Part shown: positions 11,101 through 15,863 of the stretch, in pieces
How the letters are laid out: each line of letters begins with the position of its first letter
Numbering within the stretch: the stretch's first letter is position 1
Source: Thioalkalivibrio sp. ALJT
Lineage (GTDB): Bacteria; Pseudomonadota; Gammaproteobacteria; Ectothiorhodospirales; Ectothiorhodospiraceae
Reading direction: 5' to 3'
DNA length: 64,000 nt
Assembly (NCBI RefSeq): GCF_000381825.1
Contig: NZ_KB907131.1
Span: forward strand, 1 to 64,000
Made by a program: the position numbers and the translations under genes
Notes under the pieces: model-generated
Databases searched by the model: none
Told to the model about the DNA's origin: nothing
Seen by the model: the letters and a program-made list of their open reading frames with translations, nothing else

Positions 11101-12972
11101 TCACAGCTGGTACTGCACCGCGAGCTGCCCCTGCAGCTTGCGGGCCTGCCGGAAGGACTCCTTGAGTACCCGGGCCTCCAGGGCACCCAGCGCTTCCGGC
11201 CGGATTCGGTTGTCGTCGTCGCGCCCCTCGCGCAGGGCCTTCTGCTGGGCACGCAGGCGCAGCATCTGCAGGTAACGCAGGGCGGCGTGGTAGTCCTGGG
11301 CGTCGCCGGGGCGCATGACCTCGGCCGCGACGGCCTGTTCCAGGCGCTCGTGGCTGCGCGTGGCCGGCAGTTCGGCGGCCAGTGCGATCACCCGGGCGCC
11401 GTCCACGAACGGGGTCAGTCCCTGCTTCTTGATGTCGATGCCATTGGCGCCGCTCTTGATCTCGCCGAACAGCCCCAGCGGCGGCCGGAACTGCTGCTGG
11501 TTGGCGGCCATCTGGCGCCGGAAGCGGCTGTTGAAGGCGGTCTGCTGCAGCAGGCGGGTGCGCAGCGCCTCCACCGGGCCGGCATCACCATGCAGCGCAC
11601 GCAGATCAAAGAAGATGGTGCTTTTGAGCAGGTGCTCCGGGGTGCCCTGTTCGACCCAGCGGGTGAAGCGCCGGTCCCACTCCGGGCCGCTCAGGCAGCA
11701 CTCCGGGTTGCCCGCCATGATGTTGCCGGGGCACAGCGTGAAGCCGCACTCGGCCAGGGCCTCGTTCACGGCGCGGGCATAGGGCAGCAGGCGCTCGCGG
11801 ATGGCATCGGCATCGCTCGCCGCGGCGTCGAACAGGATGCCGTTGTCCTGGTCGGTGATCAGGGCCTGTTCCTCGCGCGCCTGGGAGCCGAAGGCCAGCC
11901 AGGTGAATGTGATGCCGTCGATGGCGTGTTGCGGGCGCAGCAGGGCCAGTACGCGACGGGTCGCGTGTTCGTTCAGTCGGGTGATCAGCCGCAGTACCTG
12001 ATCGGCCTCCGCGCCCTGGCTGACCACCGCTTCGATCAGGCGCGGCACCTGGCGCAGGTGTTCGGCGATCGCGGTGACCGAGTCGGCACGCTGGATTTCG
12101 CGTACCAGGCCGTCCAGAGTCAGCGGCTGGCTGGTCAGCAGGTCGCGTTCACCGAGCACGCCGACCAGGCGGCCGGCGCGAACCACGCACAGGTGGGTCA
12201 TGCCGTGTTCGGTCATCGCCTCGATGCCCTCGAAGCCGGGGGCGCTTTCCTCCAGCGCGACCGGGTCGGGCGTCATGACCGCGTGCAGCGGGGTATCCAG
12301 GTCGACGTCGGCCAGGGCAACGCGCGCGAGCAGATCGTGGAGGGTGAAGATGCCGACCGGGTGTTGTTCGGCGTCCGTGGCCACGATGGAGCCCACGCGT
12401 TCGTCGCGCATGGTGGTCAGGACCGCCCGCAGCGGGGTGTCCGGGCGGCAGGTGATCGGGTCGCGTGTGATGCGCAGGGCCAGCGGGGTGTTCAGCTGGC
12501 CGGCGCCGGAGTCGCGGGCGGCCAGCGTGTCCATGCCCTGTTGCAGGCGGTCCAGCAGGTTGGCGAGGCGACGGGTGCAGAAGTCGTTGAAGACGCGCGA
12601 GCGGCCGCGCAGACGGTCGAAGTCCTCGAGGCTGAGTTCCAGACAGACGGTGTCTTCGGCGGCGCGATGGACGGTGTGGACCGCGCGCCGCCCGAGCAGG
12701 GCGCCGATCGGGAAGCATTCTCCGGGGATCAGCTCCCAGGCCTTGCCGGAGAGCTGTTCGTCCTCGCTCGGGGTCTCACCGCGGATGCGGCCCTGGCGGA
12801 TGATGTGAAAGCGCTGCGCCGGGCCGGCCTCGGGGTCGGTGATGCGGGCCCCGCGGGGGTAGAAGCGGCTCTCCAGACGCGGGATCAGGAAGTCCAGCGC
12901 ATCCGCCTCGATCTGGTCGAACGGCGCATGGGTGGCCAGGAACTCGCGGGTGCTGTCGAGCGCATCGGACAT
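11101..12972 (-). CDS. cNMP-binding/CBS/DUF294 putative nucleotidyltransferase (copy 2)
   Basis: 623 aa. Same architecture as the protein at 6944-8791: an N-terminal cyclic-nucleotide-binding-like domain (FYPRGARITDPEAGPAQRFHIIRQGRIRGE), two CBS repeats (starting near ITRDPITCRPDTPL and HAVMTPDPVALEES), the DUF294 core (FTWLAFGSQAREEQALITDQDNGIL) and the DUF294 C-terminal helical domain. First gene upstream of the symporter pair (55-nt gap). The ATG at 12972 is preceded by AGGGGA; the frame further upstream is not supported. Likely senses nucleotides and controls acetate transport or use, but this is inference. Confidence 0.9.
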   Translation of the reverse strand: MSDALDSTREFLATHAPFDQIEADALDFLIPRLESRFYPRGARITDPEAGPAQRFHIIRQGRIRGETPSEDEQLSGKAWELIPGECFPIGALLGRRAVHTVHRAAEDTVCLELSLEDFDRLRGRSRVFNDFCTRRLANLLDRLQQGMDTLAARDSGAGQLNTPLALRITRDPITCRPDTPLRAVLTTMRDERVGSIVATDAEQHPVGIFTLHDLLARVALADVDLDTPLHAVMTPDPVALEESAPGFEGIEAMTEHGMTHLCVVRAGRLVGVLGERDLLTSQPLTLDGLVREIQRADSVTAIAEHLRQVPRLIEAVVSQGAEADQVLRLITRLNEHATRRVLALLRPQHAIDGITFTWLAFGSQAREEQALITDQDNGILFDAAASDADAIRERLLPYARAVNEALAECGFTLCPGNIMAGNPECCLSGPEWDRRFTRWVEQGTPEHLLKSTIFFDLRALHGDAGPVEALRTRLLQQTAFNSRFRRQMAANQQQFRPPLGLFGEIKSGANGIDIKKQGLTPFVDGARVIALAAELPATRSHERLEQAVAAEVMRPGDAQDYHAALRYLQMLRLRAQQKALREGRDDDNRIRPEALGALEARVLKESFRQARKLQGQLAVQYQL

Positions 12973-13047
12973 GGCTTGGGTGGTATCCCCTGGGTGATGG
13001 AGGTCACGATTCGGGGTGCGTTTGCAAGCGGTGTGCCAATCTTTAAG

Positions 13048-13065
13048 GTGCCTGGAATCAGGCAC
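13048..13065. repeat. 7-bp stem, 4-nt loop hairpin in the leader of the DUF294 gene
   Basis: GTGCCTG GAAT CAGGCAC. It lies about 75 nt upstream of the DUF294 start on the minus strand; together with the nearby GTTACG repeats (13091-13117) it could be a regulator site or a transcript structure. No match to a known operator is claimed. Confidence 0.35.
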
Positions 13066-13125
13066 TTGTGGGGATGTCGGGGAGTGCGGTGTTACGTTGC
13101 GTAACGGGGTGTTACGCAAAGAAAC

Positions 13126-13150
13126 GGCCCCCGGCGGGGCGCCGGGGGCC
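13126..13150 (-). terminator. Intrinsic terminator of the disulfide reductase gene
   Basis: GGCCCCCGGC (13126-13135) and GCCGGGGGCC (13141-13150) form a perfect 10-bp stem with a 5-nt loop. On the minus strand it lies just beyond the reductase stop at 13173 and is followed by GTTTCTTTG. Confidence 0.8.
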
Positions 13151-13172
13151 GGGGTGGGACGTCAGGTCGGGT

Positions 13173-14567
13173 TCAGGCGGCCCGGGCCAGGCCTTCCTGG
13201 CGACCCGGCCGCGATTGCTTCAGGGTGACCAGCTCCTCGGCGCTGGTCGGGTGCAGCGGGATGGTCAGGTCGAAGTCGCGCTTGGTCGCGCCCATGCGCA
13301 CCGCGACCGCAAAGCCCTGCAGCATCTCGTCTACGTTCGGTCCGATCATGTGGATGCCGACGATCTTTTCGTCGTCCCCGGCGCAGACCAGCTTCATTGC
13401 CACGGGCGGCAGCTCGCCCTCGGCGAAGGCACGATCCAGGCCACCGAACTCGGTCTCGTAGATGCGCACCGAGTCGCCGTGCTTCTCCACTGCCTGCGGT
13501 TCGGTCAGCCCGACCATGCCGGCGGTGGGATGGGTGAAGGACACGGTCGGGATCTGGTCGTAGTCCACCGGCACCGGGTTCGTCTCCGGTGCGTACCAGT
13601 GATCGGCCAGGCGGCGGCCGGCTGCGATCGCCACCGGGGTCAGCGGGCCCTTGCCGATGATGTCGCCCAGTGCATAGAGGCCCTCGACATTGGTGGTCTG
13701 CCACTCGTCGACCGGGATGATGCCGCCCCGGGCGATCTCCACGCCGGCCTCTTCCAGGCCCATGTCGGCCGTGGCGGGCTTGCGGCCCACCGCCCACAGC
13801 ACCTTCTGATAGGGGCCCAGTTCCTGTCCGCCTTCCAGCTTCACGGTTACGGCCCCCGGTTTGCCACTCAGGCCGGCCACCTTCACGCCCAGGTGGCGGT
13901 CGATGCCCTGGTGTTCCATGTGGCGCTCCAGGGTGTGGGAGATCAACGGGTCGAACATCTCCAGCACACGCTCTTCCATCGCGACGACGTCGGTTTCTAC
14001 GCCCATGGAGCGGAGCATCCCGGCCATCTCCAGGCCGATGTAGCCGGCCCCGATCACGGCAATGGATTCCGGCAGGTCGGTCCATTCGAAGAAGTCATCG
14101 GAGGTGGCGCCCAGCTCGGCCCCTTCCAGCGGCGGCACGATCGGGGCGCCGCCCATCGCCAGCACAATGCGGTCGGCGCTGTATTCGGTGCCGCTGTCGC
14201 TGACTACCCGGCCCTTGCCGGCGAGGCGGGCGCGTTCCGGGATGTGGGTCACGCCCAGCTTGTCCAGGTACCCGGCCCAGAATTCGTTCAGGCTGCTCAG
14301 CATCGCCTGGCGGCGCTCGGCCAGATCGCCGTAGCGGATGCCGCGGACCTCGATATCCACGGCAAACTCGCCGGCCAGGCGGGCGTGGCTCAGATGCTCG
14401 GCCGCGTACCAGGTGAGCTTCTTGGGCACGCAGCCTTCATTGACGCAGGTCCCGCCCAGCGGCTTGGCATCGAACACGGCGACGCGCGCGCCGTGCGGGG
14501 CGGCACGTTCGGCCACGGCCAGGCCGCCGCTGCCGCCGCCAATCACGATGATGTCGTAGTGTTCCAT
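13173..14567 (-). CDS. garB: Glutathione / glutathione-amide disulfide reductase
   Basis: 464 aa flavoprotein of the pyridine nucleotide-disulfide oxidoreductase family. FAD motif GGGSGG at 10-15, redox-active C41-VNEG-C46, nucleotide fold GAGYIG at 173-178, and the C-terminal His439/Glu444 pair (HPTSAEE). Compared with E. coli Gor, the two arginines that bind the NADPH 2'-phosphate are replaced (segment AMEERVLE, 196-203), and the third glycine of GxGxxG is present; both favour NADH. It lies next to a peroxiredoxin-glutaredoxin fusion, the arrangement described for garA-garB of purple sulfur bacteria. Plain gor is the alternative name. Confidence 0.88.
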   Translation of the reverse strand: MEHYDIIVIGGGSGGLAVAERAAPHGARVAVFDAKPLGGTCVNEGCVPKKLTWYAAEHLSHARLAGEFAVDIEVRGIRYGDLAERRQAMLSSLNEFWAGYLDKLGVTHIPERARLAGKGRVVSDSGTEYSADRIVLAMGGAPIVPPLEGAELGATSDDFFEWTDLPESIAVIGAGYIGLEMAGMLRSMGVETDVVAMEERVLEMFDPLISHTLERHMEHQGIDRHLGVKVAGLSGKPGAVTVKLEGGQELGPYQKVLWAVGRKPATADMGLEEAGVEIARGGIIPVDEWQTTNVEGLYALGDIIGKGPLTPVAIAAGRRLADHWYAPETNPVPVDYDQIPTVSFTHPTAGMVGLTEPQAVEKHGDSVRIYETEFGGLDRAFAEGELPPVAMKLVCAGDDEKIVGIHMIGPNVDEMLQGFAVAVRMGATKRDFDLTIPLHPTSAEELVTLKQSRPGRQEGLARAA

Positions 14568-14637
14568 GTCGGTTCCTCGAAGGGTTCAGTGAAAGTGTTA
14601 CATGATGACCGCATTGCGCGCGGTCAACAGGCGTCTG

Positions 14638-14685
14638 CCATTCGTGTCCGGACGTCCGGTTGTGCCGGCATCCGGACACGAATGG
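14638..14685. repeat. 15-bp perfect inverted repeat between garA and garB
   Basis: CCATTCGTGTCCGGA at 14638-14652 is the exact reverse complement of 14671-14685; the 18-nt loop contains a further CCGG/CCGG stem. Located in the 182-nt gap between the two redox genes, it could stop or stabilise the garA transcript. Confidence 0.65.
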
Positions 14686-14710
14686 CCACCCGGGTCTCGG
14701 GTGACCACCG

Positions 14711-14735
14711 GGGGCGGGTCACAAGGACCCGCCCC
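14711..14735 (-). terminator. Strong hairpin just after garA
   Basis: GGGGCGGGTC, loop ACAAG, GACCCGCCCC: perfect 10-bp stem starting 14 nt beyond the garA stop on the minus strand. No clear U-run follows, so it may attenuate rather than fully terminate, leaving garB partly cotranscribed. Confidence 0.55.
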
Positions 14736-14749
14736 GGCGGGCGACGCGG

Positions 14750-15499
14750 TTACGCCGCCTTCTGCTCGCGGGAGATCCACTCCTGCAGATCTTCCGAGCC
14801 GCCGATGCGGTGGCCGCCCACGAACACCTGCGGGACGGTCATCGCGCCGGTGGCGGCGCGCAGGCTGCGCAGGCTGGCGTCGCGGCCCAGGATGATCTCT
14901 TCGTAATCCAGACCGGCGTTCGCCAGCATCTCCTTGGCGCTGGCGCAGTACGGGCAGCCCGGCTTGGTGAAGACGACCACGTCTTCGGGGCAGGCCGCAT
15001 CCGGCGCGACGTGGGCGAGCATGGTGTCGGCGTCGGAGACCACGAAGGGGTCGCCCGGCTCGTCCGGCTCGATGAACTGTTTCTCGATCACGCCGTCGCG
15101 TACCAGCATGGAGTAGCGCCAGGAGCGGTGGCCGAAGCCGAGGTCGCTCTTGTCGACCAGCATGCCCATCTGCTCGGTGAACTCGCCGTTGCCGTCCGCG
15201 ATGAAGGTCACGCGGTCGGCCTGCTGGTCGGCCTGCCAGGCCTCCATGACGAAGCCGTCATTGACCGAGATGCAGACGACCTCGTCGATACCGTGCTCCT
15301 TGAGCACCGGCGCCAGTTCGTTGTAGCGCGGCACGTGGGCGGACGAGCAGGTCGGGGTGAAGGCCCCCGGCAGGGCGAACACGACCACGTTGCGGCCGTT
15401 GAACAGATCGGCCGAGCGCACGTCGTGCCAGTCGTTGTCCTTGCGGCAGCGGAAGGTGACTTCCGGGACGCGCTGGCCTTCGCGATTTTCCAGTTCCAT
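14750..15499 (-). CDS. garA: Peroxiredoxin-glutaredoxin fusion (GarA/hybrid Prx5 type)
   Basis: 249 aa. N-terminal Prx5-type peroxiredoxin with peroxidatic Cys51 in PGAFTPTC, then, from about residue 172, a glutaredoxin domain with CPYC at 182-185 and TVPQVFVGG. The Grx domain recycles the peroxidase with glutathione or glutathione amide, so one chain reduces peroxides directly. Such fusions occur in Haemophilus, Vibrio and purple sulfur bacteria. The neighbouring reductase would regenerate the thiol. The ATG is preceded by AAGGAGAAC. A possible OxyR site lies 120-160 nt upstream. Confidence 0.95.
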
Positions 15500-15619
15500 T
15501 CGATGTTCTCCTTAAGAAGTTGTGATCAAGCAGTGTATTTACGAGAGAGAAGTCTTGTTCGGGCGGGGGTGATTCCCGACCACGAGACTCAAGATAAAGG
15601 CCTTCCCTTGATTGATCCA

Positions 15620-15656
15620 GTTTTTGTTTTCTATTTGGTCGTTAGCTTCTGCCTAT
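15620..15656 (-). promoter_or_regulatory. Possible OxyR-binding site upstream of garA
   Basis: On the minus strand ATAG-N7-CTAA-N7-ATAG is seen with the exact spacing of the OxyR consensus ATAG-N7-CTAT-N7-ATAG-N7-CTAT; the fourth element (AAAC) is poor. It sits in an AT-rich island upstream of a peroxide-reducing enzyme, a classic OxyR target. Three of four elements fit, so this is a candidate only. Confidence 0.4.
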
Positions 15657-15863
15657 GACCGGCCACTGTCCCGCACGCGCAGAAGATTCTGTCCCGAATC
15701 CGGCAGGCTCGCGGGCGCCCGGGAGCCATTTTTTCGTCCGGCGCCGCGTAACACGGGTCGCCCCGTACACGAATCGGTGTGTCCCTCGGGTTGACGCGTT
15801 CGCCGGAAATGCGGAAGCTTGCGGCCCGGATTCGGCAACAGCCCGAATCGCGGACCGCGTTAT

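Follow-up and report, generated by a model that had tools for sequence, protein, structure and literature searches.

The closest described counterpart of the locus analysed here is the glutathione amide reductase GarB of Marichromatium (Chromatium) gracile, the gene for which presumably adjoins one for a peroxiredoxin-glutaredoxin (Prx-Grx) fusion. The M. gracile reductase takes NADH and glutathione amide disulfide as substrates (PMC6336425), and GarA and GarB of A. vinosum carry neighbouring gene numbers (PMC4213376). Passages of PMC6336425 also describe a perthiol of glutathione amide in purple sulfur bacteria, more of which is found under phototrophic growth. On the substrate side, PMC8877833 states that Glu21 of the reductase repels ordinary glutathione and may be taken as an indicator of glutathione amide; the residue was present in the Chromatiaceae and Ectothiorhodospiraceae covered there, save for strains without the gene. 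That work included two genomes of Thioalkalivibrio and assigns the genus to the Ectothiorhodospiraceae, so that a prediction for Thioalkalivibrio has arguably been published already. By title, it was the only relevant work on Glu21 of glutathione reductase among the matches listed, and none of the matches listed in our literature search reported measurements of a thiol or an enzyme from Thioalkalivibrio.

Members of Thioalkalivibrio are described as chemolithoautotrophic sulfur oxidizers from soda lakes (PMC6620896, PMC6382920). Here we compare with these systems a gene pair in a 64,000-nucleotide stretch of Thioalkalivibrio sp. ALJT DNA (contig NZ_KB907131.1, positions 1 to 64,000; the window). 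Unless a contig is named, coordinates refer to the window, in which all features described lie on the minus strand.

Results

The reductase gene, garB (13173..14567), opens with an ATG start codon in the list of open reading frames and encodes an FAD-dependent disulfide reductase of 464 residues. Its G+C content by codon position (0.71/0.45/0.88) has the bias of a real gene, from which a long antisense frame differs, and a Shine-Dalgarno-like sequence precedes the start codons of both garB and its upstream neighbour garA. A PDB search with the garB protein returned GarB first (2r9z, 486 bits), followed by the NAD form of E. coli Gor (1ges, 389 bits) and Gor itself (1ger, 388 bits). The structure used is an AlphaFold model with a mean pLDDT of 84.5, falling below 50 at residues 437-445, which include the catalytic histidine, and at 452-464. 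With this model, Foldseek placed 2rab/2r9z first (ranks 1-4), and in VIA-align 2 the same entries were nearest (Z 48.6 and 48.4; next 47.1). Of two curated glutathione-disulfide reductase models, the product scores 498.6 against NF004776, above its cut-off of 480, and 479.1 against TIGR01421, below its cut-off of 556.15. It is the sole close relative of glutathione reductase in the genome, the completeness of which is rated at 100%; three further matches share 24-31% identity. Among 22 loci found, the 12 closest belong to Thioalkalivibrio (84-94% identity) and the remaining ten share 27-49%. An earlier sequence-only reading had proposed a disulfide reductase at this site and named GarB as the matching known enzyme. 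Both proposals hold: the frame encodes a flavoprotein disulfide reductase without the NADPH arginines, GarB ranks first by sequence and by fold, and the two fall in one clade.

The partner gene, garA (14750..15499), lies upstream of garB in the same orientation, has a gene-like codon bias as well and encodes a Prx-Grx fusion of 249 residues. Profiles PF08534 and PF00462 both match, and TIGR02190 scores 115.8 bits (cut-off 99.3). Relative to the Haemophilus fusion HI0572 (1nm3), the domain order is the same and the match is full-length (359 bits across 238 residues), so that the fusion proposed in the earlier reading is borne out as Redoxin and glutaredoxin domains in one chain. We found no feature separating amide users from glutathione users among Prx-Grx fusions, in a comparison made with 1nm3. 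Adjacent garA was present at 23 of the 24 Thioalkalivibrio loci read, the remaining one being cut by a contig end. Besides garA and garB, no gene family occurred around more than 8 of 28 garAB neighbourhoods (27 loci and the window), although the ORF picker of this survey itself failed on garA or garB at some loci; by eye, the commonest other neighbour was a LysR-like regulator. The likeness to a garA-garB pair noted earlier thus stands, with garA directly upstream of a GarB-clade reductase. As judged from sequence, the product of 13173-14567 is a divergent GarB orthologue alongside its GarA partner.

The genes are separated by 182 bases (14568-14749) that contain a perfect 16-bp hairpin (14637..14686). 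The gap folds far better than shuffled versions of itself (z -7.2). In an alignment of T. versutus-group loci the hairpin is intact in 13 of 13, with 208/208 cells paired; five pairs are altered on both sides and none on one side only. Since the hairpin contains no G-U steps, these data suggest that what is conserved is a palindrome in the DNA no less than a hairpin in the RNA. The more distant Thioalkalivibrio loci (L056-L059, L061, L062) have other sequences in the gap. Rfam gave no match at E 0.1 across 12900-15700, and a REP-like repeat was rejected, the stem sequence being absent among perfect stems of at least 14 bp in 156 kb of the organism's own sequence. A terminator-like hairpin (13125..13151) directly follows the garB stop codon. 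Only this placement favours reading it as a terminator, as such sites are expected by chance (two overlapping sites found in 13000-15800 vs 1.8 expected).

The dinucleotide pocket of the garB product differs from that of Gor at positions changed in the engineered NAD form. In alignments to 1ger and 1ges, with codons checked, the segment Met197-Glu-Glu-Arg-Val-Leu-Glu203 (13959..13979) covers Gor Arg198 to Arg204, with Met197 and Glu203 at the two arginine positions; the NADPH pocket of Gor is absent. The dinucleotide motif GAGYIGLE (14028..14051; codons checked) has Gly178 in place of Gor Ala179. The fold and catalytic residues are those of Gor and of 1ges, the sequence of which carries Ala179Gly and Arg198Met; Gly178 and Met197 correspond to these two engineered changes, whereas Glu198, Glu199 and Glu203 differ from 1ges at other engineered sites. 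All four cofactor claims of the earlier reading (loss of the arginines, Gly for Ala, the parallel with the engineered enzyme and an NADH-type pocket) agree with these alignments, the last being further supported by the GarB-like acidic residues. Chance is not an issue for the pocket residues, as Met and Glu occupy both arginine positions in 15/15 T. versutus-group rows. M. gracile GarB (2r9z/2rab), about 51% identical, has the same fold, redox cysteine pair, Glu at position 21 and FW helix and likewise no NADPH arginines, but reads Leu-Glu-Asp where the Thioalkalivibrio pocket reads Met-Glu-Glu.

We placed the enzyme in a reductase tree built from 157 frames read at 157 of 159 loci (129 unique sequences); four rows were removed and GarB and Gor added, giving 127 rows. 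Columns covering the dinucleotide pocket, the helix and position 21 did not enter the tree, which is a quick one, unrooted and without bootstraps. One branch (SH-aLRT 99) parts a GarB clade of 40 rows, made up of 22 from Thioalkalivibrio and 18 others including M. gracile, from 87 Gor-type rows. The garB product falls in the same clade as M. gracile GarB. Its Phe96-Trp97 codons (14277..14282) belong to the FW helix, where Gor has Ser-Tyr; the Trp marks the GarB clade in this sample and maps to a single change on the clade's branch (SH-aLRT 99). A Prx-Grx fusion lies within 400 bases of 38/40 GarB-clade rows vs 3/87 Gor-type rows, where adjacency for the two reference rows (GarB and Gor) was assigned from literature and background information rather than from loci. 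The GarB-clade rows without an adjacent fusion are L060, at a contig end, and L118, with full flanks. An NADH-like pocket, defined as position 198 not Arg or Lys, or position 199 acidic, occurs in 38/40 GarB-clade rows vs 5/87 Gor-type rows; under a strict rule using position 198 alone, the counts are 35/40 vs 3/87. Three Gor-type rows, L123, L160 and L167, both adjoin a Prx-Grx fusion and are among the five that have lost the pocket, Arg198 being absent from all three. This hints, from few independent pairs, that coupling to garA and use of NADH may have become linked more than once, also outside the GarB clade.

In 25/25 Thioalkalivibrio genomes, a match resembling GarB was present at roughly 70% identity or above. 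Among 17 other members of the same family, 14 had a match of only 44-50%, and no glutathione reductase match at 1e-70 was obtained in the other three (G005, G006 and G011, the last rated 81% complete). PMC8877833 mentions Ectothiorhodospira strains in which the reductase gene was not found. Within the GarB clade, Thioalkalivibrio forms a long branch (1.05 changes per column, SH-aLRT 100). The redox disulfide loop Cys41-Val-Asn-Glu-Gly-Cys46 (14430..14447; aligned, codons checked) contains Glu44, which stands between the redox cysteines in 24/24 Thioalkalivibrio sequences (Gln in one) vs 0/105 others. Thr52 replaces Met with the same distribution (24/24 vs 0/105), and Pro437, two residues ahead of His439, is found in 22/22 vs 2/105. 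These three residues stand on the Thioalkalivibrio side of the comparison with M. gracile GarB, as does a chemolithotrophic host. Given the long branch and the active-site changes of its own, the function of the Thioalkalivibrio enzymes may have shifted.

A marker that the earlier reading had not mentioned is Glu20 (14508..14510; codons checked), aligned with GarB Glu21, the published substrate-side marker; E. coli Gor has Asn. We take the human counterparts to be Arg37 at this position and Tyr114 for the helix Trp. Glu21 is present in 37/40 GarB-clade rows, with Lys in three, and also in 49/87 Gor-type rows, where Arg198 is mostly retained. In other genera of the same family (L065-L070, L165), 7/7 reductases read are Gor-type enzymes that share Glu21 with the garB product but have Arg198, a WY helix and no adjacent garA. 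Because Glu21 occurs in so many Gor-type enzymes, the cofactor switch and the amide marker are, on the alignment, separate traits that part cleanly on the tree. From the family mates with Glu21 and Arg198 but no garA it follows that an NADH pocket alone would not imply glutathione amide, nor the amide marker NADH. The earlier proposal of glutathione amide use, drawn from the NADH pocket, therefore holds in part: Glu20 is present, but the step from cofactor to amide is not tight. For a specialist, the new elements would be this separation and the company that the marker keeps with sulfur oxidation in the sample.

That company was seen in 80 genomes (of 97 intended), chosen by similarity to the garB product. 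soxB above its curated cut-off was found in 47/53 Glu21 genomes vs 3/27 without Glu21 (Fisher 8e-12), or, counted by 56 families, in 32/36 vs 2/20. Within the GarB clade it occurs in 15/16 Glu21 genomes and in none of three Lys21 genomes, which sit on two branches; these Lys21 enzymes (L127, L130, L133) come from genomes that have RuBisCO. In the garB host itself, two soxB matches exceed the cut-off (G000 C4:78469 and C2:240210). A second sample comprised 29 loci, of which four came from genomes in the earlier set, and no Glu21 was found in 28. On well-supported branches only two contrasts for soxB are independent (on average 1.7 concordant, 0 discordant); with unsupported branches included, our own greedy pairing script gave eight contrasts (on average 5.5 concordant, 0 discordant; sign test 0.03). 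With so few independent contrasts, much of the correlation is shared ancestry. As the hypothesis was formed post hoc and the genomes were picked by similarity to the garB product, we regard the association as a lead. Autotrophy was rejected as the correlate: RuBisCO counts are strong (51/53 Glu21 genomes vs 8/27, one fragment counted as present), but only 2.5/8 tree contrasts were concordant, and soxB did better.

We also looked for the means to make the amide, and the glutathione amide synthetase gene suggested by the earlier reading did not materialize, in that no candidate held up in the genome. We know of no such synthetase that could serve as a search query. The genes gshA (C3:212536; PF04262) and gshB (C1:181481) both match ordinary families. 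The PF08886 GshA profile had no match in the genome, with an uninformative control, and PF03738, representing a ligation like that of glutathionylspermidine synthase, had none either, with a control positive in two genomes. PF00733 (AsnB-type) gave eight genome matches. Four are full-length: an XrtA/PEP-CTERM amidotransferase, an N-acetylglutaminylglutamine amidotransferase and two general enzymes (L006, L008). L006, of 672 residues, was rejected as the amide synthetase, having no association with GarB across the 66 genomes in which it was profiled. Close orthologues, at 68% or above, occur in 22/22 genomes of family f1 (there at 74% identity or above), two of which gave no reductase match at 1e-70, and outside f1 in 4/17 GarB-clade genomes vs 4/27 without GarB (one in two pieces). 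By eye, this asparagine-synthase-like gene (L006:742-2760; G000 C1:420114-422129) follows carbamoyltransferase-like, sodium-solute-symporter-like and hydrolase-like genes, and L008 lies amid glycosyltransferase-like frames.

Discussion

Our comparison suggests that the garB product very probably prefers NADH. In favour of an enzyme using NADPH, or both cofactors, despite the lost arginines is Arg200, still nearby in the pocket sequence; however, GarB, described as NADH-using, has a matching Arg (VALEDR), and Glu198 and Glu199 are acidic like the Glu-Asp of GarB, so we consider this reading highly improbable. Somewhat less improbable, yet still unlikely, is that the Thioalkalivibrio branch has become a persulfide (perthiol) reductase, freeing sulfide from the persulfide of glutathione or glutathione amide in a sulfur oxidizer. 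The case for it is built mainly on the substitutions confined largely to the genus that lie close to the active site in the sequence (Glu/Gln44, Thr52, Pro437), together with the long branch, the two soxB genes over the cut-off and the glutathione amide perthiol known from purple sulfur bacteria (PMC6336425). Against it, the garA gene kept beside garB in 23/24 genus loci fits peroxide defence.

Whether the NADH-linked reductase serves glutathione amide is, in our estimation, an evenly balanced matter. The enzyme may instead be a glutathione reductase that uses NADH in a cell with only glutathione, its Glu20 inherited and not diagnostic, a reading that we hold to be a serious if less probable one. 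In vitro, ordinary glutathione is recycled by the enzyme of A. vinosum using NADH (PMC4560021). Its T. tepidum counterpart, called a glutathione amide reductase, has served for cofactor recycling in an ordinary-glutathione cascade, in passages that mention NADH in the glossary only (PMC12951573). Both enzymes are GarB-type by their literature name and lie outside our tree sample. Passages of PMC4213376 report glutathione, and no detected glutathione amide, in A. vinosum, where the reductase is named GarB. The ordinary gshA and gshB families and the spread of Glu21 among Gor-type enzymes point the same way. Opposed to these are the repulsion of glutathione ascribed to a Glu at the glycine-carboxylate site (PMC8877833) and the statement, from Bartsch 1996 as told in PMC6336425, that glutathione amide is the main thiol of A. 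vinosum. The replacement of Glu21 by Lys on two GarB-clade branches, in three genomes without soxB, hints in addition that the charge is under selection.

Taken as a whole, the account towards which we lean is that garA-garB forms a thiol-peroxidase system in Thioalkalivibrio that works with NADH and glutathione amide. GarB would pass hydride from NADH via FAD to the Cys41-Cys46 disulfide and then reduce the disulfide of the main small thiol of the cell, taken to be glutathione amide because the glycine-carboxylate pocket carries Glu. The reduced thiol would restore GarA, with its Prx domain clearing peroxides and its Grx domain resolving mixed disulfides. More tentatively, and with rather low expectation, an acidic residue 21 might mark small-thiol chemistry, involving amidated glutathione or its persulfide, across sulfur-oxidizing Gammaproteobacteria and not only in purple sulfur bacteria; it would then have originated independently of the switch to NADH, a trait that instead accompanies the GarB clade with its coupled garA.

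If the amide is the natural substrate, the range of this thiol takes in chemolithotrophs of soda lakes as well as purple phototrophs, and our survey of the residue flags many more sulfur oxidizers for a simple thiol assay. If the substrate is ordinary glutathione, the published rule that Glu21 denotes glutathione amide fails. Either outcome would show how far a single residue predicts the redox thiol of a cell.
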